Origin: Acholeplasma sp. OttesenSCG-928-E16
Lineage (GTDB): Bacteria > Bacillota_I > Bacilli_A > Acholeplasmatales > Acholeplasmataceae
DNA length: 32,808 nt
Direction of reading: 5' to 3'
Assembly (NCBI GenBank): GCA_030266845.1
Contig: JAJDIT010000011.1
Span: 1-32,808, forward strand
Shown: in pieces, positions 10,089-29,644 of the stretch
How the letters are laid out: the number at the start of each line of letters is the position of its first letter
Position numbering within the stretch: the first letter of the stretch is position 1
Translations under genes and position numbers: made by a program
The notes under the pieces: generated by a model
What the model was told of the DNA's origin: nothing
Database searches by the model: none
What the model saw: only the letters and a program-made list of their open reading frames with translations

Positions 10089-10130
10089 AACGCCCTATCT
10101 AATCTGATAGGGCGTTTTATTTTATTCTAG
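10089..10130. terminator. strong terminator between the 58-codon gene and the EIIC/EAL gene
   Basis: AACGCCCTATC (10089-10099) and GATAGGGCGTT (10106-10116) form a perfect 11-pair GC-containing stem with loop TAATCT, then TTATTTTATT. The T-rich tail is better on plus; on minus the tail is ATGTTTTAG, so it may also end the convergent EIIC/EAL transcript. Confidence 0.88.
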
Positions 10131-10136
10131 CTTTAT

Positions 10137-12329
10137 TTATTTTCTTGAAATTGGCGGTTTAAATCCATGTTTTCGACAATAATGAATAAAGTCATTCTTT
10201 TTGATCGCTTTAGAGAAATACCAACCTTGATAATAATCACAACCTAATTCTTCTAATGTATCTAGTTGTTCTTTAGTCTCGACACCTTCGGCAACTACCT
10301 TTACATCAATTTTCTTACATAGATCAATGATTGATCTAACGATACTCTTTCTAATATCATCCTCAGCTACTGAGCGAACTAGTTCCATATCAATTTTAAT
10401 AATGTTTGCATATAAATCACTGAGGTAGAGTAACGAACTATGCCCCATTCCAAAGTCATCAATTGAAACACTAATTCCAAGATCCCTCATTTTCCTCATT
10501 GTTTCTTTTATTTCTGGTGATGAATAAATCGCCTTATTTTCGGTTAACTCAAGCTCTAATCCAGTTGTATCCAGATGTAGTTCTTTAATTAAATCAAATA
10601 TCTTAGTAATTAACTGTGGATCATCATTTAATTGGATTGGTGATAAGTTCGATGAAACTAAAACATGGACTCCATTATGCTTCATGAACAAATAGTCTTC
10701 CCATGCTGTCTTAATAACCCAATCGCCAAGAGTAATCATCATGTTAGCATCTTCGATTAATCTTAACGTTATTGCTGGTGATATATAACCAAAAACCGGG
10801 TGATCCCATCTTAGTAATGCCTCACATCCAGCAACTGTATTATCATATTCTACTTTTGGCTGATATTCTAAATGTAATACAGATTCTCCACTCTTAAATG
10901 AGTTTCTAATTTCATCCATTAGCGCATTAGCTAATACCCCTATTTCATCTGATCTATTTAAAATGGAGTGTTTTACTTCATGTTTTTCCGAACTAAATAC
11001 TTCTTGGCATAAGCTCTTATAAATATCCATTTGCCTAGCTCTTTGGTTTTTCTTATACATGATTGCAAATGGCAAATAAATACCAACAGTAAGTAATAGA
11101 TTGATTAATTGTAACCCAAATCCTCCCCATCCACTATTCATATATCCAGAGAATAATATCGGGGTAGTCCACCAAACGTCCTGATTACCACTAACTGGCA
11201 TTGCCTGTATCATCCCAATAGATATTGCCCCAAATGATGTTAGTGTTAAAATAATCGGGGTTAGGATAAATGGAATAATAAAGTAAGAACTAAAGATAAT
11301 TGGTAATCCATATACTAACGTTTCATTAATATTAAAAATACCCGGAATAATCGATGATTTTACAACTGATTTTTCCTTGAACTCTTTATTTTTAAGTGAT
11401 AATGCAAATAAGGCAATCAATAATCCAATAGTCGCTCCTGCTCCACCTATAAATACATATGTATCAAAAAACGGTTTATTAAATATTGTTAAGTCGGCGT
11501 TTGCCCCAACGTGGTTTAATGAATCCATCACAATATTCCCACCGTGCATACCCATAAACCAAAACACTTGAGTAAGAAAAACTAATAGGATTGGATAAAA
11601 GACGTTTGTTTGATTCATTCGACTAGCGATTGAATTGGTAACCCATAATGTTAGTGTGTCCTCTCCAAAAAGGACTTCCTCACCATATCCTAAAGCCGAA
11701 AAACATAGTACTGTGAAAACCATTGGAAAAATCATTTTAAACATGTTGTATGTTAGATAATTACTTGAGATTGTCTTTTTTCTTTTAGCATCTATCCATT
11801 CTTTAATGGTAGAAAATAAGACAAACAACTCCGCCGATGCAATAGATACAACAATAGCTTGTAAAATACCGGTTGCTCCAAGTCTATTAAATATCGAATT
11901 AAATTGAGAGGTTAAAATATAAGTAATCCCTTCTGCAGTTTCAAAATCTATTGTTAGCGGTCTAAAATTATAGGCGAAGAATGAAACCAAAGCCACCATA
12001 ACAACAGCATTACTTTGGATTTTACCTTCTTTATATTCTTTCTTTTGCTTTATATATGCATTTGATATCGAAACTGTTGCTAAAACTGACATTATTCCCA
12101 TAGTTCCACGGTGAACGCCAAGTCCTATTCGTTTCCAGTTATCACCAAAAACAGTAACCATGAAATTTTGGTAAGCCGGAATAGGAAAATTAAGAATTAC
12201 TAAAATAAAAGCACCTATCAATAGGGCGGGAACAATATCCGTAAAACCTTTTCTTATGGCTTTAATGATGTTACTTTCTTCAATTTTTTTAATTCCTGCA
12301 GCAAATCCTTTTAATGCGTTCATAATCAC
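10137..12329 (-). CDS. PTS EIIC-like membrane domain fused to an EAL cyclic-di-GMP phosphodiesterase domain
   Basis: 730 residues in two parts. Residues 1-425 are a complete EIIC permease domain of the lactose/cellobiose type with about ten hydrophobic segments; it contains MHGGNIV (His262) and the family signature PGIFNINETLVYGLP (329-343, Glu336). These look like the His and Glu of the substrate site in the ChbC structure. Residues about 480-725 are an EAL domain with every key residue in place: E503 (EALLRW), N561, the ELTE motif at 594-597, D624/D625 (IDDFGMGHSS), K645 (IKID), E681 (AEGVET) and Q701 (QGW). The 55-residue linker contains RSDEIGVLANAL and is too short for a GGDEF domain. 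No EIIA or EIIB is attached or adjacent. Predicted role: hydrolysis of c-di-GMP to pGpG at the membrane under control of a sugar or of PTS state. The start is GTG 12329, in a GTGA overlap with the upstream gene; ATG 12323 is the alternative. Confidence 0.9.
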   Translation of the reverse strand: MIMNALKGFAAGIKKIEESNIIKAIRKGFTDIVPALLIGAFILVILNFPIPAYQNFMVTVFGDNWKRIGLGVHRGTMGIMSVLATVSISNAYIKQKKEYKEGKIQSNAVVMVALVSFFAYNFRPLTIDFETAEGITYILTSQFNSIFNRLGATGILQAIVVSIASAELFVLFSTIKEWIDAKRKKTISSNYLTYNMFKMIFPMVFTVLCFSALGYGEEVLFGEDTLTLWVTNSIASRMNQTNVFYPILLVFLTQVFWFMGMHGGNIVMDSLNHVGANADLTIFNKPFFDTYVFIGGAGATIGLLIALFALSLKNKEFKEKSVVKSSIIPGIFNINETLVYGLPIIFSSYFIIPFILTPIILTLTSFGAISIGMIQAMPVSGNQDVWWTTPILFSGYMNSGWGGFGLQLINLLLTVGIYLPFAIMYKKNQRARQMDIYKSLCQEVFSSEKHEVKHSILNRSDEIGVLANALMDEIRNSFKSGESVLHLEYQPKVEYDNTVAGCEALLRWDHPVFGYISPAITLRLIEDANMMITLGDWVIKTAWEDYLFMKHNGVHVLVSSNLSPIQLNDDPQLITKIFDLIKELHLDTTGLELELTENKAIYSSPEIKETMRKMRDLGISVSIDDFGMGHSSLLYLSDLYANIIKIDMELVRSVAEDDIRKSIVRSIIDLCKKIDVKVVAEGVETKEQLDTLEELGCDYYQGWYFSKAIKKNDFIHYCRKHGFKPPISRK

Positions 12330-12880
12330 ACTATTCCCAATTCATCAGCTATCTCTAAAAATATATCACTAATTGAATAATAATCTAATTTTAAATTATT
12401 TACAATTTTTTCGATAACGTTATTGAAATTTTCAAATATTTTGTTTGGTACTTCTGCTTTTTTAGTAATGTAATCTTTATAAACTGTTTCGTATAAATTA
12501 ACTAATGTAGAATAATCACTTCTCTCATCTTCTGGGAGAATTGACATTTCATTTTTAAAATCCGCAATATTCAAATACAATAAAACAGATTTTGCATTTT
12601 TCTCTAATTCCTCAAAATCGTTGTCGTAGAATTTTACTAATACATTATCTAATTCATATATTTGTTCTGACAAATATGAAATGCCAGTAACAAATATTTG
12701 ATGATCCTCTTCGGTATATTCAGGTTCATCAATTAGTTTATTATATAGATAGTCGACTACATCAAAAACATGTTTAAACCGAATCGAAAAAGGTGACTTT
12801 TCATCAATCACTTTTTTAATTAGACTATCATAGTCTATCAACCAATTTGAGTATTCTTGATATAGTCGTTCATCTATCAT
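12326..12880 (-). CDS. acidic helical protein between fba and EIIC/EAL, unknown
   Basis: Not recognised. 184 residues, mostly helical by composition, rich in Asp, Glu, Tyr and Leu, no cysteine, no signal peptide and no membrane segment, so a cytosolic protein is expected. Blocks such as EYSNWLIDYDSLIKKVIDEK and NNVIEKIVNNL look amphipathic. AGAGGA precedes the ATG by about 10 bases. It begins 15 bases after fba and ends in a 4-base overlap (GTGA) with the EIIC/EAL gene, so its translation and that of EIIC/EAL are coupled. This tight link makes it a candidate partner or regulator of the EAL protein; that is inference from position only. Confidence 0.75.
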   Translation of the reverse strand: MIDERLYQEYSNWLIDYDSLIKKVIDEKSPFSIRFKHVFDVVDYLYNKLIDEPEYTEEDHQIFVTGISYLSEQIYELDNVLVKFYDNDFEELEKNAKSVLLYLNIADFKNEMSILPEDERSDYSTLVNLYETVYKDYITKKAEVPNKIFENFNNVIEKIVNNLKLDYYSISDIFLEIADELGIV

Positions 12881-12895: not shown

Positions 12896-13762
12896 TTATG
12901 CTTTATTTACAGAACCAAACATCGTTAACTTATCTTTTACAGTTTGTCTAATAGCTTCGCTACCTGGAGCTAGTAGTTTTCTTGGATCAAATCCTTTACC
13001 TTCTAAATCTTTACCCGCTTCGATGTACTTTCTTGTTGCTTCGGCAAATGCTAATTGTAGTTCAGTATTAACATTAATTTTTGCTACCCCTAATGAAATG
13101 GCTTTTTTGATCATATCTTCAGGAATTCCGGTTCCTCCATGTAAAACCAAAGGAATACCGTTTGTAGTATCTTGAATTTCGGCAAGTACTGAAAAATTTA
13201 AACCAGCCCAGTTACTAGGGTATTTTCCATGAATATTACCAATACCCGCCGCTAACATATCAATTCCTGTATTCGCAATAATTGCGCATTCTTTTGGATC
13301 TGCTACTTCGCCACTTCCTACAACACCATCTTCTTCTCCACCGATTGCTCCAACCTCAGCTTCTACTGAGACTCCTACTTTATGACATAAAGCTACTATT
13401 TCTTTTGTCTTTTCCAAATTTTCATTAAATTCATAATGAGAACCGTCAAACATAATAGATGTAAATCCAGCCGCTAAAGCTGCTTTCGCCCCTTCGTATG
13501 AACCGTGATCTAAATGGATTGCTACTGGAACAGTAATATTCAAATAATCGTGAAGTTCCTTTACTAATGCAACGACTGTCTTATATCCTCCCATGTATTT
13601 TGCAGCTCCTTCTGAGACTCCAAGAATAACTGGTGACTTTAAAGCTTCTACCTCTAATAAAACAGACTTTGTCCATTCTAAGTTATTGATGTTGATTTGT
13701 GCAACGCCATAACCTTCTTTGTGTGCCTTAATAAGCATTTCTTTTGCTGATACTAACGCCAT
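12896..13762 (-). CDS. fba: fructose-bisphosphate aldolase, class II
   Basis: Zinc enzyme of glycolysis that splits fructose-1,6-bisphosphate into dihydroxyacetone phosphate and glyceraldehyde-3-phosphate. Residues HLDHG (83-87) contain the catalytic Asp85 and zinc ligand His86; GIGNIHGKY (174-181) and LHGGTG (207-212) give His178 and His208. The NVNTELQ phosphate-binding block is also present. The 288-residue length fits the short Bacillus FbaA type; tagatose-bisphosphate aldolases of the same fold cannot be wholly excluded, but the pyrG-neighbour context supports FbaA. AAAGGAGGAAG is a strong ribosome site. It is the first gene of fba-orf184-EIIC/EAL. Confidence 0.95.
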   Translation of the reverse strand: MALVSAKEMLIKAHKEGYGVAQININNLEWTKSVLLEVEALKSPVILGVSEGAAKYMGGYKTVVALVKELHDYLNITVPVAIHLDHGSYEGAKAALAAGFTSIMFDGSHYEFNENLEKTKEIVALCHKVGVSVEAEVGAIGGEEDGVVGSGEVADPKECAIIANTGIDMLAAGIGNIHGKYPSNWAGLNFSVLAEIQDTTNGIPLVLHGGTGIPEDMIKKAISLGVAKINVNTELQLAFAEATRKYIEAGKDLEGKGFDPRKLLAPGSEAIRQTVKDKLTMFGSVNKA

Positions 13763-13793: not shown

Positions 13794-13802
13794 ATTATAT
13801 CA
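13794..13802 (-). promoter_or_regulatory. extended -10 promoter of the fba operon
   Basis: Minus strand TGATATAAT, about 30 bases before the fba start. The region where a -35 would lie is occupied by the palindrome at 13807-13824. Confidence 0.6.
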
Positions 13803-13806
13803 ATTT

Positions 13807-13824
13807 TTTAAACATTTGTTTAAA
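13807..13824. promoter_or_regulatory. operator-like palindrome at the fba promoter
   Basis: TTTAAACA-TT-TGTTTAAA, a perfect eight-base inverted repeat with a two-base centre, covering the -35 position of the fba promoter. The size and placement suit the binding site of a dimeric repressor, but no regulator is known for it. Confidence 0.4.
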
Positions 13825-21596: not shown

Positions 21597-22434
21597 TTTC
21601 TTCCTCGTAAATATCATTAAAACTATATTTTTTATCATCTTTAATATACCCTAAAAGGGCATTGATGTTTACATTCTCACAAGCCTTAAATATTGAGTGA
21701 TCAATATCTGGATTAATTGTTCTTAGTTTTTGGATAAGTTCCTTTACTTCTCTTCTTTTTGAAGACAGTTTTAATGCTGTAACTTTACATCCACAATCCA
21801 TTGAATGAAGGCCAATTTTATTTTGCCATCTAATAATATCTTTTTCTTTTATTAAAAAAAGCGGCCTTATTAATTCCATTCCTTCAAAATTCAATGATTT
21901 TATTTTTGGAACCATTGTTTTAAATTGTCCTCCATAAAATATATTTAATAAAGTTGTTTCAATCACATCATCAAAATGATGCCCTAATGCTAGTTTATTA
22001 CACCCTAATTCTTTTGCTTGGTTATATAAAAAACCTCTTCTCATCCTAGCACATAAATAACATGGAGATTCCTTAGCTATTTTTTCTATTACATTAAATA
22101 TATCAGAGTTTTTCACTATCACATCAATATTTAGAAACTTACAGTTTTCAAGAAATTGATTTTGATTGAGATCTAAAAAGCCTGGATTCATTGAAATGAA
22201 GACAACTTCAAAATTAAATTTATCGTGTTTTTTTAGTTCTTGAAAAAGTTTAGCCATTAAAAGACTATCTTTACCTCCTGAAATTGCAACGGCGATTTTA
22301 TCATTTGGTTCAATTAGTTTATAGTCCTGAATTGCCTTAATAAATGGCCGGAATAAAACCTTATGATATGTCTTTATAAGGCTTTTTTCTATCTCTTTAA
22401 TATCAAGTTTTGGAAGTTTAATATTAGTTTCCAT
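21586..22434 (-). CDS. TtcA-family tRNA thiolation enzyme
   Basis: PP-loop ATPase that adenylates a tRNA base and brings in sulfur; TtcA makes 2-thiocytidine at position 32 using an iron-sulfur cluster. Visible are the PP-loop SGGKDS (52-57), the cluster pair C125-x-x-C128 in CYLCARMRRG, GHHFDDVIETTLLNIFYGG (151-169) and a further CGC (214-216) in the place of the third cluster-associated Cys region. Length 282 is normal. Close to TtcA over the whole core, though the C-terminal Cys arrangement differs from the Escherichia coli form, so the exact base modified is open. It overlaps both neighbours by 11 bases, within a DHH-DHH-ttcA-mnmE operon. Confidence 0.82.
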   Translation of the reverse strand: METNIKLPKLDIKEIEKSLIKTYHKVLFRPFIKAIQDYKLIEPNDKIAVAISGGKDSLLMAKLFQELKKHDKFNFEVVFISMNPGFLDLNQNQFLENCKFLNIDVIVKNSDIFNVIEKIAKESPCYLCARMRRGFLYNQAKELGCNKLALGHHFDDVIETTLLNIFYGGQFKTMVPKIKSLNFEGMELIRPLFLIKEKDIIRWQNKIGLHSMDCGCKVTALKLSSKRREVKELIQKLRTINPDIDHSIFKACENVNINALLGYIKDDKKYSFNDIYEEENDI

Positions 22435-23380
22435 TTATGTTTAAATGCTCATCTATTAGGGCATCTACATCAATTGCTAGTTTTTTCGCATCATCGAAAG
22501 AATCAAGAGAAGCTCCTGCTGCTTGAGCATGCCCACCTCCACGATATTTTTCGGCAAGCTTATTAATTTCTATACCAGAAGATCTTAATCTTACTCGGTA
22601 CTCATTATTATCATATTCGATGATTAGGGCCCATACTGGAAATCCTTCAATACCAGCTAGTTGGTTAACTAAGGCGGCTGCATCTTCACTTGATACACCA
22701 AATTTGTTGTATATTTCTTTTGGAATACAAACATAAATAAAATGTTTAGTCTTTACTATGTTATTTAAAAGATATCCTTTTAGTTCAATTTCATTTAAGG
22801 TTGTTTTTCCTAGCTTATTGTTGATAAATTCAACATCCGCTCCTAATTCTAATAGGAGTCCTGCGGCATTATGAGTTTGTCTTGTTACGCCGCGGTACTT
22901 AAATCCCCCAGTATCAGTTACAATGCCAGTGTATAAAGCCATTGCTCCTTCTTTGCTCATTTTCAATTCTTTAAAAGAAATATAAAAGTCAGTAATCATT
23001 TGGCTACACGCTGGTGATTCTTCAATAATCCAGTTAATATCTCCGTAAAGATCGTTTGAAATATGATGATCTATTTTGATTATTTCCTTTCCGTTTTTAA
23101 ACCTTAAGTCAGATACTCTTTTAGAATCTCCGCTGTCAACGACTATTGATAGTGATTCTTGACAAGTTAAATCGGATGGATTATCTGACTTACCTAAAAA
23201 AGAAACAAAATCTGAAAGTTCAGTTGAGACATATACTTCCTTTTTTGGAAATGTTGTTTTTATGATATCTTTTAAACCAAACTGAGATCCATAACAGTCT
23301 CCATCTGGTCTTATATGTCCATATATAACTATTTTGTCATACTCTTTAATTTTCTTTAGTATTTTCTTCATAACTTGCAT
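22424..23380 (-). CDS. DHH/DHHA1 phosphoesterase, NrnA type (second tandem copy)
   Basis: Manganese-dependent enzyme of the nanoRNase/pAp-phosphatase class, acting in the cytosol on very short RNA, pAp, or linear dinucleotides such as pGpG and pApA. Metal-site pieces are GHIRPDGDCYGSQ, VDSGD, KIDHHISN and the DHHA1 signature GGGHAQAAGA near the end. I use the ATG at 23380 (MQVMKK): AAAGGG lies 9 bases before it and an ATG at 23398 has no ribosome site. It overlaps the first copy by 35 bases and ttcA by 11. It is a clear paralogue of the gene just upstream, with the same overall length; specificity of each copy cannot be told. Confidence 0.88.
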   Translation of the reverse strand: MQVMKKILKKIKEYDKIVIYGHIRPDGDCYGSQFGLKDIIKTTFPKKEVYVSTELSDFVSFLGKSDNPSDLTCQESLSIVVDSGDSKRVSDLRFKNGKEIIKIDHHISNDLYGDINWIIEESPACSQMITDFYISFKELKMSKEGAMALYTGIVTDTGGFKYRGVTRQTHNAAGLLLELGADVEFINNKLGKTTLNEIELKGYLLNNIVKTKHFIYVCIPKEIYNKFGVSSEDAAALVNQLAGIEGFPVWALIIEYDNNEYRVRLRSSGIEINKLAEKYRGGGHAQAAGASLDSFDDAKKLAIDVDALIDEHLNINGN

Positions 23381-24323
23381 ATTGTTTCGCCCTTTCATCT
23401 AATTTCTCGATCATTTGGTCGGCGATTATAAACGAATCTACCGTTGCCCCACACGCCTCATTATGGCCGCCTCCACCAAACTCTACTGCAATATCTACTA
23501 CCTTAATGCCCCTGCTTCTTATTTCAACAGATATCTTACCATCTTCTCCTTCAGTAAAACTTGCCCAAATTGGAATTTCTTTGATGCCTGCCATTTGATT
23601 AACCATTCCTCTTGAAACAGAAAATGTATCTAACCCCGATTTCTTAACTAGCTCTTTAGTATTTTTTCGATAAGCAACTCCATGCGTTGTAGTTTCAAAA
23701 TCAGCAAATAGGGCTCTTGTTTTCTTTGACTTTAATGATTCTACGTAAAGATAATCATAATATCCTTTAATGTCTGGATTAAAGGAAGTGATAAACCCTG
23801 CAAGTTCGAATGTCTTTTTTGCATTATCTTTTGATAGGTATAAGAACCTATTAGTATCTGTAATAATACCTCCATAGATATATGTTGCTGCTTCGCTTGT
23901 AGTTTTTATATTCCACGTTTTAATTAAGTCAGCAATCATCGCGGCAGCGCTTGAAAAACTTGAATCTTTATAATATATATCTATTTTGTTTATATCGGAG
24001 TTACTTTGATGATGATCAATAATTATCAGCTTTTCTCCATTTAAATATCTCTCTCCAGAGATTAAATCGTGCGCAGCTGTATCGCACACTATCACTAAGG
24101 CACCTAAATATTTATCATCGCTTATATGATCCATTTTAGCTTGGTACATACGATCATTAGTATCTCCGACTACATATATTTCTTTATCGGCAAAATTATG
24201 CTTTAGCGTCAAATATAAACCATATTGGCTGCCTATCGCATCTCCGTCTGGATTTTTATGACGATGAATAATTATTTTATCATATTCTTTTATTAAGTTT
24301 AGTATTTGAAATTTAATATCCAT
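23346..24323 (-). CDS. DHH/DHHA1 phosphoesterase, NrnA type (first tandem copy)
   Basis: Same family as its downstream neighbour. Metal-site motifs are HRHKNPDGDAIGSQ (20-33), VCDTA, IIDHHQSN and the substrate-binding GGGGHNEACGAT near the C-terminus, so it should be active. I use the ATG at 24323 because AAGGAGG is 7 bases upstream; an in-frame ATG at 24356 would put the promoter -10 inside the gene. First gene of the DHH-DHH-ttcA-mnmE operon, behind an extended -10. The two copies differ enough in sequence for different substrates. Confidence 0.88.
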   Translation of the reverse strand: MDIKFQILNLIKEYDKIIIHRHKNPDGDAIGSQYGLYLTLKHNFADKEIYVVGDTNDRMYQAKMDHISDDKYLGALVIVCDTAAHDLISGERYLNGEKLIIIDHHQSNSDINKIDIYYKDSSFSSAAAMIADLIKTWNIKTTSEAATYIYGGIITDTNRFLYLSKDNAKKTFELAGFITSFNPDIKGYYDYLYVESLKSKKTRALFADFETTTHGVAYRKNTKELVKKSGLDTFSVSRGMVNQMAGIKEIPIWASFTEGEDGKISVEIRSRGIKVVDIAVEFGGGGHNEACGATVDSFIIADQMIEKLDERAKQYASYEENTKEN

Positions 24324-24346
24324 AGTATGCCTCCTTGCAAGAATAT

Positions 24347-24355
24347 ATTTTATCA
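24347..24355 (-). promoter_or_regulatory. extended -10 promoter of the DHH-DHH-ttcA-mnmE operon
   Basis: Minus strand TGATAAAAT, with a start site near 24340 and the AAGGAGG ribosome site at 24330-24336. Confidence 0.5.
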
Positions 24356-24373
24356 TACTTTATATTTAATTTC

Positions 24374-24436: not shown

Positions 24437-26275
24437 TTATGCCTTGAATATTATATTGTCAAACATCATTCTAGCATCATTACCTCCAGCTTTTCCGCCT
24501 TCAGCGTATAGCCTAAATGCGCTTGCGTTAAATGAAGCTACGTTTTGAACAACATTCTTAAAGCATGTTCCAGCTGCAATTGTTGCCTCAGAAAAATCAC
24601 TAGGAATGTCTGACATTGCTTTAATATCTAATGCTGTAACCCATTCTCCTGAACCGTTTTTGTATTGTAGTTCAACTTTTGAAAAGAAGCTTGCTGCACT
24701 AGTGTTCCAATATCTAACATCAAAACTGATTTCCTTGATAACTGATCCGATATTAAATATAGCGTAAGCTACTCCATTATAGTTACCAGTTCCAGCAGAG
24801 CCATCGCTTTCTAGTCTTGGTGATAAGACTAAAGAGTTCCATGTTTCTGGGATTGTAATAGATTGTGAGGTTACATGATTGAATGCTACTCTATGAACAT
24901 CAACGATTGTTACTGCAGAACCTGATACACCATCTGTTAGGCTAATTCCAGTAGCTGTCGAATAAGAGGTATTATTATCTGAAGCCTTAGGGAAAGCAAA
25001 TGAGAAGATCGCTTCTAGTTCACCTGTTGATACTGCTTGTTTAACTGTAAAGTTAACTGTTCCAGTTCCAATTGACTCTTCACCATATTTAGCAGTGTAT
25101 GTCATTACTACTTCGCTATCAGCGCCTGAAGGTCTAGTTATCGTTCCATCGTTAGCCATAACAGTTGGTTTGTCAGAACTCCAAGAAATTGAAGCACCAT
25201 AAGGAGCTGTTGTTGGTAAAACTACATTAGCAACAACATTATCGTTGTCATTTGGAATAACTGAATCAAAATGAGCTGAAGCAAGTGCTTTTAATTCTGC
25301 TGCTGAAGCAAGAGAACCAATAGTAATTTGATCATCATTATAAAGTGTAAGTTGCGGAACACTACTATAAGAAGAAATTAAAGCTTTTGTAACGCTAATC
25401 TTTGTTCCTGCAGCTACTTCATTTTGTAATAACTTCCAAGTTTCATTTTCAAATCTAACATCAAATTCTACTTGGTCATCAGTTGATGCGAATACGACAT
25501 TGTTTTTACCAGTAAGTTTAGCTTTATTCTTTAATACACCAGTAATATTAGCTAAAGCGAATTGATTATTAACATTATTAATATCAGCACCCTTAGTGAA
25601 GTCTTTAGCTTCTAATGCGTTTCCTTCGCTTACTACAGATACAGCAGTTGCATCTTTAATTTCGTGTTGTCCAAAGGCTACATCCTTAGTTCCTGTAACA
25701 ACGACTTCATTTCCAGAAACGAATTTGCTTTGTAGTGCAGCTCCAACATTATATACTAAGATTCCGCCTGCGTTTCCTTTAGCTTGAATGAATGCATCCA
25801 TTCTATCGTTTGAACCACGGTAAACATGAGTGACGACACCAGCAAACGAAACGACTAAACCATTAGCTGCGCTTCTGAATTGGTCTAAAGTCAATACTGA
25901 CTGTGGTAATACTTTAACGTTAAAGTCTTTAGTTCTAGATTTTATTTTTGCAGTTAAGACAACATCAACTGCAGCTGTCACTTCTTTAACGATGATTTTA
26001 ACTTGTTGCATATCTTCTACTTCTTCAACAGTTGATGTAACTTCAAGTGCATCACTATTATTTGAAGACCAAGTTATTGCATAAGTTGTTCCATCGCTAG
26101 TAACTTCTTTATAAAGATAATATTCACCTTTTGAGTATTCGTCTTGCACGATTGAAGAAAGTCTATCTAATACTTCATCAATCTTCTCTGAGTTTCCTCC
26201 ACCGCCAAAGCCATCGCATGCGACAACTCCTAATAAAAGAAACACCGATAGTACTAATAGTCCAAGTTTTTTCAT
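24437..26275 (-). CDS. large surface lipoprotein with Ig-like and OB-like modules
   Basis: Lipoprotein signal with Cys20 (LLGVVAC), then a Gly-rich spacer. From residue positions I see: an Ig-like module at about 30-122 (ITWSSNNSDA), an OB-fold-like module at about 130-215 (VVSFAGVVTHVYR, GNEVVVTG), a second OB-like module at about 235-318, another Ig-like module at about 325-413 with ISWSSDKPTVMANDGTITRP, the typical atrophied bacterial Ig sequence, and a C-terminal beta-sandwich of about 190 residues ending in FDNIIFKA that looks like a binding domain. No enzyme motif was seen. OB-like modules beside an extracellular nuclease are known from Bacillus YhcR, so nucleic acid binding at the cell surface is a reasonable guess. 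GGAGG ribosome site; 28 bases behind the nuclease gene with no promoter between, so one operon. Confidence 0.75.
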   Translation of the reverse strand: MKKLGLLVLSVFLLLGVVACDGFGGGGNSEKIDEVLDRLSSIVQDEYSKGEYYLYKEVTSDGTTYAITWSSNNSDALEVTSTVEEVEDMQQVKIIVKEVTAAVDVVLTAKIKSRTKDFNVKVLPQSVLTLDQFRSAANGLVVSFAGVVTHVYRGSNDRMDAFIQAKGNAGGILVYNVGAALQSKFVSGNEVVVTGTKDVAFGQHEIKDATAVSVVSEGNALEAKDFTKGADINNVNNQFALANITGVLKNKAKLTGKNNVVFASTDDQVEFDVRFENETWKLLQNEVAAGTKISVTKALISSYSSVPQLTLYNDDQITIGSLASAAELKALASAHFDSVIPNDNDNVVANVVLPTTAPYGASISWSSDKPTVMANDGTITRPSGADSEVVMTYTAKYGEESIGTGTVNFTVKQAVSTGELEAIFSFAFPKASDNNTSYSTATGISLTDGVSGSAVTIVDVHRVAFNHVTSQSITIPETWNSLVLSPRLESDGSAGTGNYNGVAYAIFNIGSVIKEISFDVRYWNTSAASFFSKVELQYKNGSGEWVTALDIKAMSDIPSDFSEATIAAGTCFKNVVQNVASFNASAFRLYAEGGKAGGNDARMMFDNIIFKA

Positions 26276-26303: not shown

Positions 26304-27521
26304 TTACTCCCTTGGATCGGGTAATTGTGGTAACGCATTTGGAATCGGTTTGCTATTAGCATAATCCCACATTAAATCTTTTTCTCCATGGATTCCCCAT
26401 CCATTATTTTTAGCTCTTACATAGGCGTTTTCGCAATATCCTACATAAGGAACATTCAAATAATGAAAGGCTCTTGCTTCTGTTGTTAAATCTTGACTTC
26501 TAACATCAGATAGTCCAGCTCTTACAACCATAAAGTTTGCCAAGTATCCATCAATCCATACATATCCTAAATATCTAAGATAAGTATCCCTAAGTCCCCC
26601 ATTTAAAACTGATTGGATTTCAATTTTTGCGCCTCTTGATTTAGCTTGGTTTAATAGATGCTTCATAAAGACGCTAGCTGGTTGACCCCATTCTTCAACA
26701 CCGACTCCACCTGGTGAATTTTCTTTTGTATCAATAAGTGTAAATCTAAGTTTAACTTGTTTTGTATATTGGCCAGCTGAATCTAAGAATGGTCTAGAGT
26801 CATCTTTAGTTTCAAAAGTTGCGGTATCACCATCAGCGACACTTAATAAGTTAACTTCAATCACACCACCGCCACCTAGATTACTATCGCTTTCACTTAC
26901 AAAAGGTAACTCTCTATATTCATCTAATAAAATTGGACCCTTATTTAACTCTTCATCTGTTTTAACTGGAAAATCTTCGTTCTTTAAATATTGAAACATT
27001 CCTTCTAAATACATAATAAAATCATATGGCTGATATTTTGATCTAGCTTTCATGTAGGCTGGTTTTCTAATTAGAGTTACAAATTTGCCAAATTCAACTG
27101 TTCCCCCAATATCACCGATGATATCTTGCGTCTTGTCGCCTTGTTTTAGAACAATTACATCATCTCCATTAAAAAGTAAATCATTATTTTCTAAATCCGC
27201 TTTTTCCTTAAGGATTTCATCAGTTACCATTGATCTTGCAATAACAAAATAATCTTGTGCTTTAATTGTGCCAGATAATTCTATTTGATATGATACGATA
27301 GATTCTCCATTTGAATATATTTCAATCATCCATTCTGATAAATCAATATCTTTTTGGGATAGATTGTATAATTCAATTGCGGTATTATCTAAATCGCTTG
27401 TTGAGTAGTACTTTGAAATAATAATATTGGACTTTGTATAGTTTTCCTTACCACCATTATCACAGCCAAAACTAATAAATCCGATGACTACCAATAATAA
27501 AATATATACTATTTTTTTCAT
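26304..27521 (-). CDS. surface lipoprotein with lamin-tail and staphylococcal-nuclease domains
   Basis: Lipoprotein signal with Cys20 (ISFGC, a loose lipobox). Residues about 32-145 form a lamin-tail domain (IIISKYYSTSD, AIELYNLSQKDIDLSEW, DYFVIARS). Residues about 220-375 form a thermonuclease domain: VADGDT, then KLRFTLIDTKE and YLRYLGYVW, with the equivalents of staphylococcal nuclease Asp21, Arg35, Asp40, Glu43 and Arg87 all present (numbered from this start: Asp232, Arg259, Asp264, Glu267, Arg316). So a calcium-dependent, cell-surface DNA/RNA-degrading activity is likely. I prefer the ATG at 27521 to the one at 27527: spacing from GAGG is right and the lipid Cys then falls at residue 20 as in the three neighbouring lipoproteins. 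Confidence 0.88.
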   Translation of the reverse strand: MKKIVYILLLVVIGFISFGCDNGGKENYTKSNIIISKYYSTSDLDNTAIELYNLSQKDIDLSEWMIEIYSNGESIVSYQIELSGTIKAQDYFVIARSMVTDEILKEKADLENNDLLFNGDDVIVLKQGDKTQDIIGDIGGTVEFGKFVTLIRKPAYMKARSKYQPYDFIMYLEGMFQYLKNEDFPVKTDEELNKGPILLDEYRELPFVSESDSNLGGGGVIEVNLLSVADGDTATFETKDDSRPFLDSAGQYTKQVKLRFTLIDTKENSPGGVGVEEWGQPASVFMKHLLNQAKSRGAKIEIQSVLNGGLRDTYLRYLGYVWIDGYLANFMVVRAGLSDVRSQDLTTEARAFHYLNVPYVGYCENAYVRAKNNGWGIHGEKDLMWDYANSKPIPNALPQLPDPRE

Positions 27522-27552
27522 CCTCATACACCTCTTTATTTCCTCTAATAAT

Positions 27553-27679: not shown

Positions 27680-29644
27680 TTAAGCGGCAGGGTTAACTTT
27701 TAAACCAGCTGCTTCGTATAATGTAAATTGTGTTTTTGCAGGAGTACTACCTTGACTATCACTTGTATATCCTGATTCAAAATAACCACCAAATCCTGAA
27801 ATAGTTACTGAAGCTCCATTAGCTAAACCGTCAAAATTAAGTGTCTTACTTGAAGCTCTTACTGCAATAGTATCTCCATTTGCTAATGTAAGTGTAAATG
27901 ATGTGTTAGAAGATGTACTATCATTATTTTTAAGGTTAGATACTGTTCCTGTTGCAGTGATTAATCCACTGATATTTGCAACCATCTTAGCAGCTGAATC
28001 AATATTTGCTGCTGCAGGAACTGTTTGATTAGTTTCAACAACTGTTAATTGAGTTGCCTTAACTTGAACTAATCCACTGTAAACAGATTTTTCACCAACA
28101 ATTTTAACTTTGTTTCCAACTTTTAAATTAGAAGCTGATGGAACACTAGATCCAAAATTTCCATAAATGTAAACATGTTTTCCAGCTCCATCTGTTAATA
28201 ATGCATTACCATAAGATGAACTAATAACTAATGAAATAATACCTTCAACTCTAATTACATCACCATTTGCAACGCTTGCACCAAGTACTTCAGCGATTGT
28301 CTTATCTACATAGTCACCAACATAAATCTTGAATTCTCTTTCATCAGTTTGACCATTTAGAGTTGCAACAACCTTAATTACAGCTTCATTTCTTTGAGCA
28401 GCTACTGGACTTAATGTTAATGTTGTTCCACTAATTGCTGCATAGTCTCCACCACTAACTACTGACCATGCTAATACTGAGTTGTATTCAGAACCAGCTG
28501 CTGGTAATGTATAAGTTAATTCTGAAGGGAAATCTGTTTGAATTGTAATTGATTTAGCATCAACTGCTGCTAATGTAGCGTCTGGCATGTTACCTTTTTC
28601 AGTAATTGAAGCAATTGATAAACTCCATACTGGTTGTGATTTTCCTGATGTAGTTTGTCTTGAGTCTCTTAATTCTCTTACTGTTGCAGTAACTGATACT
28701 TCTTTACCTACGTAATCATATGATTCTTCATGTAATAAACCTTTATAGTAGCTTAATACAAATCCTTTGTCAAAATCAGCACCGTTTGTTGGATCAACAA
28801 ATGTTAATTGATAGTTTCCCCCACCAGTAAAGTCTTTTCTTTCAACAACGTATGCATCAAACTTCATATATTTGATATATGCTGGATCAGTTTTTGAATC
28901 TTTAACTTTAGCATCTGTTGAAGCGTAGCTAGCAAAATCATATGTATTTAAGTTTACGTTTGCTGGTGTTACACTTTGATTTTCATCTTTTAATACTAAT
29001 GTAGCTCCAGTTGCTTGAAGTGCCCAATAGTAAGAATCTAATTGACCAATTAGTGTTCCCTTATCGCCTACCTCAACTGTTGGAGTTTGATAAACCATTA
29101 AAATGTGTCCAGCTGAGTCAGCAACATAGAATGCATCTTCGTCTTTGTTAACAACAGTTACATTAGTTAACTTGAAGCTTGGTACTAATTTACTTTCAGT
29201 TTGTGTTTTGCCTTCCCATGCAGCCTTACCAGCAGCAACTAAGTCAGAAATTGTTGTATATTCAACAGTTCCATCTGGCAATTTAGAAATAGTGATTGTA
29301 AAGACTTTTGTATCAGTTGCTCTACCAAGCTTTAAAGCTCCGGTTAAAGTTACTGTTAAATCTGCGCTTGTTGGTCTATCAACGATTACAGATACGTAGC
29401 CTTCATTTCCTCTATCCTTAATTTCTGCGTAAGTTGCATCACTTGTTGTCCAAGAAGCAGTTGCCTTATTTCTAAGAGAAGTTGGCAAGTCAAATCCAGA
29501 AACTACTGCGTCTTTATCTTCTACTAACGTTTCAATTAATAGTGCATCTGCAGCTTCTTGCAATAGAGCTTCATCGTTATTTGTACAAGCGAACAACGAT
29601 ACAGCAACTAATGCCACCATAAATAATGATAATAGTTTTTTCAT
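27680..29644 (-). CDS. large surface lipoprotein with several OB-like and Ig-like modules, in the ABC transporter operon
   Basis: Lipoprotein signal with Cys20 (SLFAC). The 654 residues read as repeated small beta domains: Ig-like at about 28-121 (ATASWTTSDATYAEI), OB-like at about 145-219 (AFYVADSAGHILMVY), OB-like at about 255-347, Ig-like at about 356-442, OB-like at about 447-537 (GDVIRVEGIISLV, ALLTDGAGKHVYIYG, VKIVGEKSVYSGLVQV) and OB-like at about 545-645 (ITATGTVSN). No catalytic motif is visible. It follows the binding-protein gene by 31 bases, with an AAGGAGAT ribosome site and no promoter between, so it belongs to the transporter operon. It is likely a capture or docking protein for the transported ligand; this is inference from context. 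Confidence 0.75.
   Translation of the reverse strand: MKKLLSLFMVALVAVSLFACTNNDEALLQEAADALLIETLVEDKDAVVSGFDLPTSLRNKATASWTTSDATYAEIKDRGNEGYVSVIVDRPTSADLTVTLTGALKLGRATDTKVFTITISKLPDGTVEYTTISDLVAAGKAAWEGKTQTESKLVPSFKLTNVTVVNKDEDAFYVADSAGHILMVYQTPTVEVGDKGTLIGQLDSYYWALQATGATLVLKDENQSVTPANVNLNTYDFASYASTDAKVKDSKTDPAYIKYMKFDAYVVERKDFTGGGNYQLTFVDPTNGADFDKGFVLSYYKGLLHEESYDYVGKEVSVTATVRELRDSRQTTSGKSQPVWSLSIASITEKGNMPDATLAAVDAKSITIQTDFPSELTYTLPAAGSEYNSVLAWSVVSGGDYAAISGTTLTLSPVAAQRNEAVIKVVATLNGQTDEREFKIYVGDYVDKTIAEVLGASVANGDVIRVEGIISLVISSSYGNALLTDGAGKHVYIYGNFGSSVPSASNLKVGNKVKIVGEKSVYSGLVQVKATQLTVVETNQTVPAAANIDSAAKMVANISGLITATGTVSNLKNNDSTSSNTSFTLTLANGDTIAVRASSKTLNFDGLANGASVTISGFGGYFESGYTSDSQGSTPAKTQFTLYEAAGLKVNPAA

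Follow-up and report, generated by a model that had tools for sequence, protein, structure and literature searches.

Cyclic di-GMP (c-di-GMP) enzymes that carry a permease domain of the phosphotransferase system (PTS) are already on record. Figure 4 of the 2022 review by Randall et al. (PMC8846402) gives PTS_EIIC, from Pfam 34 architectures, as a rare partner domain of these enzymes and groups it there as a phosphoreceiver. In the general scheme of the PTS, phosphate passes from EIIB to the sugar held in EIIC, and EIIC itself is not phosphorylated (PMC6048161). Of the tested links between sugar and an EAL enzyme, the closest is the action of EIIA-Glc on the phosphodiesterase PdeS (VC1710) of Vibrio cholerae, which works in trans through the phosphorylation state of a soluble EIIA (PMC6877527). 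The literature that we searched yielded no experimental study of an EIIC-EAL fusion. Active EAL enzymes such as BifA, PdeA, MorA, and DosP sense through Cache, PAS, MASE, or similar domains, none of which is a transporter domain.

Here we describe an EIIC-EAL fusion from an Acholeplasma and the family to which it belongs. Like the proteins in the figure of Randall et al., the fusions pair PTS_EIIC with a c-di-GMP turnover domain, but most of the genomes that carry them lack a detectable EIIB and many lack EI, in contrast to the phosphoreceiver role assigned there. They share with BifA, PdeA, MorA, and DosP the EAL fold and the complete set of metal and catalytic residues, and with the Vibrio system the tie between sugar supply and an EAL phosphodiesterase; unlike that system, a permease-like domain is fused to the enzyme, and no phosphorelay is needed in many hosts. 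With ChbC (structure 3qnq) and the lactose/cellobiose EIICs (TIGR00410 and TIGR00359) they have in common the fold, the His250/Glu334 site, and the membrane topology, yet they come without EIIB or EIIA, have lost a loop motif, carry an EAL domain, and, in the case of our protein, fall below both NCBIfam cut-offs. What is new, within the sources searched, is the independence from the phosphorelay, the absence of the loop motif, and how widely the family occurs.

The fusion gene and its surroundings

The window, by which we mean the whole stretch of DNA analyzed, is an entire contig of 32,808 bp (C3) from a 1.13-Mb assembly that is 86% complete. The fusion gene occupies positions 10137 to 12329 on the minus strand and encodes 730 residues in one open frame, in which Pfam recognizes PTS_EIIC (PF02378; residues 26 to 358, E 1.3e-24, 87.3 bits against a cut-off of 30.7) and EAL (PF00563; residues 473 to 707, positions 10209 to 10913 on the minus strand, E 6.3e-62, 209.5 bits against a cut-off of 31.3). 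The NCBIfam lactose/cellobiose IIC models span residues 15 to 432 (E 4.6e-54) at 184.1 bits, below the subfamily cut-offs of 236 for TIGR00410 and 434 for TIGR00359. An earlier note on this DNA gave these coordinates correctly, leaving the strand unstated, and described a lactose/cellobiose-type EIIC joined to an EAL domain; Pfam, NCBIfam, and the alignment to ChbC all agree with it. The gene opens with GTG at 12329, and an in-frame ATG follows two codons on; the ATG, as third codon, is the likelier true start and agrees with a conserved Met3 column in the alignment of the family. No codon of the gene is read differently by translation table 4, so the reading frame does not depend on TGA as Trp. 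Nor does composition point to recent foreign origin, the GC content (33.1%) and GC3 (25%) being the same as those of the window.

Directly upstream lies a gene for a 184-residue protein with no Pfam match (12326 to 12880, minus strand), whose stop overlaps the GTG start by 4 bases, and 15 bases upstream of that gene stands a class II fructose-bisphosphate aldolase (Pfam F_bP_aldolase; 12896 to 13762, minus strand). The arrangement suggests that aldolase, 184-residue protein, and fusion probably form a three-gene operon, with the aldolase first and the fusion last. A promoter-like site, TAAACA-17-TATAAT with an extended -10 (13794 to 13822, minus strand), precedes the aldolase gene and matches the consensus, in a window that holds no more sites of this kind than expected by chance. 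Immediately past the fusion gene is a terminator-like hairpin of 11 pairs that is T-rich on both sides and is assigned to no strand (10089 to 10116), one of 5 of its kind, compared with an expectation of 1.8 from shuffled sequence. Farther along the window, two large proteins with aBig_2 (atrophied Ig-like) domains (24437 to 26275 and 27680 to 29644, minus strand) stand on either side of a Lamin-tail and staphylococcal-nuclease-like protein (26304 to 27527); these proteins are probably surface exposed or secreted.

Intact catalytic and sugar sites and a lost loop motif

Across an alignment of 70 fusions, the EAL residues E503, N561, E594, T596, E597, D624, K645, E681, and Q701 are invariant and D625 is kept in 69. 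Every metal and general-base residue that the earlier note had picked out (these same positions, with ELTE at 594 to 597) is thus present and conserved in relatives, and this conservation indicates an output that is probably enzymatic, with the EAL part acting as a working phosphodiesterase. Foldseek matches this part to the active EAL enzymes BifA, MorA, and PdeA, with a target TM of about 0.9, and ChbC is also among the matches to the model of the whole protein. The catalytic residues weigh against the idea that the EAL part is a c-di-GMP receptor, as in LapD and FimX, with c-di-GMP acting as the gate of the EIIC part. A fused protein could conceivably be coupled in both directions, but degenerate receptors do not retain catalytic and metal residues in this way, and we consider this reading extremely unlikely.

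The host assembly encodes six EAL proteins and several GGDEF proteins. Five of the EAL proteins each have a GGDEF match as well, leaving the fusion as the sole EAL protein of the assembly without one. Two of the GGDEF proteins (diguanylate cyclases) have intact motifs, so c-di-GMP should be available as substrate; the host in all likelihood produces it. The rarity of c-di-GMP enzymes in wall-less bacteria, which the earlier note asserted, is true of mycoplasmas but does not extend to acholeplasmas, given this complement and the 14 c-di-GMP-type proteins noted in Acholeplasma laidlawii in 2008; that the host is wall-less was itself a fair inference from kinship, as it belongs to the family of A. 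laidlawii. EAL proteins of ~540 to 580 residues with a hydrophobic start and a middle without Pfam match are common in acholeplasmas and other Bacilli (for example, L008 1486 to 3111, minus strand). The window also holds tandem DHH-DHHA1 phosphodiesterases resembling NrnA (22424 to 23398 and 23346 to 24356, minus strand), whose genes share about 50 bases. Removal of pGpG, the product of EAL enzymes, is a known role of NrnA-type enzymes.

The EIIC domain, of the lactose/cellobiose/chitobiose type, takes up residues 1 to 430 (about 15 to 430 by homology; 11040 to 12329, minus strand). The ChbC structure aligns with residues 15 to 432 (E 2.9e-43), placing His262 and Glu336 of the fusion on His250 and Glu334 of ChbC, as the earlier note had believed. 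His262 is present in all 69 sequences that have a residue at this position, and Glu336 and Pro390 are present in all 70. Within the transport domain (residues 240 to 430), 22 of 27 transporter-invariant positions are retained in at least 85% of the fusions, and the alignment points to strong constraint on the sugar-site residues. His250 and Glu334 of ChbC do double duty in sugar contact and phosphotransfer, so that their conservation alone cannot tell sensing from catalysis.

It is the cytoplasmic loop between TM4 and TM5 (residues 181 to 202; 11724 to 11789, minus strand) that sets the fusions apart, as the K-M-P-x-x-V-P-P of transporters is missing there. The motif K-M-P-x-x-V-P, which we defined from 22 stand-alone EIICs (the 14 nearest relatives and 8 EIICs for lactose or cellobiose encoded on plasmids of other genera), is found in 21 of those 22 and in none of the 70 fusions, and none of the five transporter-invariant positions of the loop is retained. 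Five Lys or Arg residues at positions 178 to 202 of the window protein fit a cytoplasmic location. In a glucose EIIC, the TM4-TM5 loop is likewise cytoplasmic, packs on the transport domain of the partner subunit, and is involved in the release of sugar awaiting IIB (PMC11393339). By analogy, we read the changed loop of the fusions as a probable sign of lost EIIB-dependent work. Pro is also gone from position 337 in nearly all of the fusions, where the residue after the NINE motif is mostly Leu, Ile, or Met in place of the Pro of lactose/cellobiose EIICs. We do not count this as a hallmark of fusion, since ChbC itself has Met there.

An AlphaFold2 model of the whole protein, built as a monomer from the 70-sequence alignment (pLDDT 91, pTM 0.87), gives form to the connection between the two domains, for which the earlier note had proposed a structure prediction. 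The last membrane helix runs unbroken from residue 391 to 450, out of the membrane, and a further helix (462 to 480) leads into the EAL domain; the helical linker as a whole covers residues 421 to 488 (10866 to 11069, minus strand). Measured from Phe421 to Tyr489, the linker is 64 to 68 residues long in 65 of the 70 fusions (median 65, range 59 to 71, window protein 68), and such constancy among proteins of about 23 to 41% identity to the window protein suggests a rigid connector. The EIIC part was also modeled separately (pLDDT 89, pTM 0.89). Its only significant Foldseek matches are two ChbC chains; all four matches with a probability of 1.00 are EIICs, and MalT structures come next. The model superposes only loosely on ChbC and MalT (TM about 0.5), and its arrangement of scaffold and transport domain probably differs from the crystal state. 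EAL enzymes are active as dimers. EIIC transporters of this superfamily are also dimers (PMC11393339), and a coupled-dimer geometry is therefore plausible.

Spread of the family and its PTS partners

Homology searches revealed that PTS_EIIC plus EAL, the architecture whose taxonomic spread the earlier note had proposed to examine, is widespread rather than unique. After removal of duplicates, we obtained 70 non-redundant intact fusions (window included) from Clostridia, Bacilli, and Proteobacteria, complete and type-strain genomes among them, and 70 independent intact fusions rule out an assembly artifact or a sequencing error that joined two genes. By tblastn against 88 Acholeplasmataceae genomes, the EAL part was found in many and the fused protein solely in the window genome; a search widened to 395 genomes of the class brought up intact fusions from three further families, and a scan of GTDB genomes with the fusion alignment added about 65 more. 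The alignment was needed as query, as a scan of genome contigs with the window protein alone found no relatives. Carriers with complete or isolate genomes include Geosporobacter ferrireducens, Candidatus Formimonas warabiya, Clostridium viride, Eisenbergiella tayi, Holdemania massiliensis, Nisaea nitritireducens, Rubrivivax gelatinosus, and two Marinobacterium species. Phylum labels of some metagenome bins are doubtful: one 'Gammaproteobacteria' bin (L093) falls close to a 'Bacillales' bin (L097) in the tree.

When a tree is built from the EIIC parts, a branch with support of 100 separates the 70 fusions from 14 stand-alone transporters, a sample chosen as the nearest by BLAST, and this topology is compatible with a single fusion event and later spread. 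The window protein groups with that of Geosporobacter (about 40% identity) and of a Ruminococcaceae isolate (support 93, on a long branch), apart from the other Bacilli fusions. Because the gene is otherwise missing from the window's own family, an old transfer from Clostridia is likely, one that leaves no trace in present base composition. Rubrivivax gelatinosus has two EIIC-EAL genes in tandem (L114 4800 to 9275, plus strand). Three Lachnospiraceae loci (L126, L128, and L134) share a conserved cluster, with the gene for a stand-alone PTS_EIIC_2 protein downstream of the EIIC-EAL gene and that for a second EAL protein beyond it; the arrangement may bring two transporter-like proteins together with c-di-GMP turnover.

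Gene neighborhoods give little clue to the ligand: among the 109 nearest neighbors of the fusions, no Pfam family dominates, and EIIA and EIIB are not among the 25 most frequent. A GH13-like gene (L138) and an FGGY-kinase-like gene (L140) were set aside as ligand clues, being anecdotal single cases with translations judged by eye.

The PTS complement of the genomes is more informative. The window genome encodes one EI, three HPr, and one EIIC, the fusion being its only PF02378 protein. The EI gene (L154 2385 to 4381, plus strand, contig C16) adjoins genes for an HPr and a TIM-barrel sugar isomerase-like protein, and the phosphorylatable His of its product lies in a divergent context, N-Q-S-H. 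The earlier observation that no EIIA or EIIB is attached or nearby extends to the whole 86%-complete assembly, in which neither PF02302 nor lactose-type EIIA (PF02255) was detected, bearing in mind that PF02302 represents the lactose/cellobiose-type EIIB and not all EIIB families and that an assembly of this completeness could be missing an EIIB. Seven of the nine other fusion genomes from the class search likewise lack lactose-type EIIA and any EIIB above the cut-off. Among 50 fusion genomes from the GTDB scan, a few species of which are shared with the class-search set, EIIB is present in 13, whereas 37 have no match to it above the cut-off; EI as well as EIIB is missing from 22. One of these is Candidatus Formimonas warabiya, whose 6.4-Mb genome is complete. 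With both missing in 22 of 50 genomes, the fusions persist beyond the reach of any phosphorelay.

How sugar may set c-di-GMP turnover

These data bear most directly on the possibility that the EIIC part works with phosphorylated EIIB in trans, which would place the phosphodiesterase under the control of PTS activity or phosphorylation state. The phosphoreceiver label in the figure of Randall et al. (PMC8846402), the EI and HPr of the window genome, the 13 genomes with EIIB, the intact sugar-site His and Glu, and the in-trans precedent of EIIA-Glc and PdeS (PMC6877527) all lend themselves to it. Against it stand the lack of EIIB in most genomes and of EI in many, the loop motif lost throughout the family, the absence of EIIA and EIIB from the 25 most frequent families among the neighbors, and the general scheme, in which EIIC is not the recipient of phosphate (PMC6048161). 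A phosphorylation-coupled role for the fusion family as a whole is unlikely, though it may hold in hosts with EIIB, the evidence argues against a phosphoreceiver role for its EIIC domain, and we hold this mode of control improbable for our protein. Alternatively, the EIIC part could still pass sugar by facilitated diffusion without phosphorylation, with the enzyme reading the transport flux. The conserved transport-domain residues and the elevator-type EIIC fold would suit such a role, as would the lone PF02378 protein of the window genome, hence a possible real path of sugar entry; the altered TM4-TM5 loop and the lost Pro337, however, could equally mark a receptor barred from full transport, and we regard continued transport as rather doubtful. 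The EIIC part could instead be only a membrane anchor or dimerization platform, the EAL domain being constitutive or controlled elsewhere, and the lack of a conserved neighborhood that names a ligand speaks for this; yet pocket residues should decay in a mere anchor, and here they are as constant as the EAL catalytic residues and the linker length is held, which makes this quite improbable.

Reading together what is observed directly, namely, the fusion, its intact motifs, its family, the lost PTS partners, the lost loop motif, and the linker length, we think it probable that a former PTS permease domain serves here as the EIIB-independent sugar receptor of an integral-membrane c-di-GMP phosphodiesterase and sets EAL activity through a helix. 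The best reading of the locus is still that of the earlier note insofar as a transporter fold acts as the sensor of a membrane phosphodiesterase; the input through PTS phosphorylation that it also proposed is poorly supported by the distribution of EIIB, EI, and the loop motif. In the mechanism that we infer, which includes dimerization, ligand class, conformational coupling, the direction of regulation, and the absence of sugar passage across the membrane, an EIIC dimer would retain its sugar site and no longer perform EIIB-dependent phosphorylation. The ligand in its pocket would be a sugar, with a beta-linked disaccharide or oligosaccharide, or a glycan fragment of related kind, as the probable candidate. 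Once bound, the sugar would move the transport domain from one state to another, this shift would pass along the last membrane helix and the linker of near-fixed length to the EAL pair, and the EAL pair would then convert c-di-GMP to pGpG at a changed rate.

For the family as a whole, the chances seem to us evenly balanced that these are receptors made from a PTS permease withdrawn from the PTS and fixed to a phosphodiesterase, in which elevator movement, uncoupled from phosphorylation, itself conveys the sugar signal, and does so also in bacteria without a PTS. If so, the fusions would link extracellular sugar directly to c-di-GMP within one protein, would represent a transporter that became a receptor without its phosphorylation partners, and would correct the phosphoreceiver view of PTS_EIIC in c-di-GMP proteins. 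In wall-less bacteria, gut Clostridia, and marine Proteobacteria alike, they would also provide a sensor that can be tested, one in which elevator movement could be observed through the readout of an enzyme.
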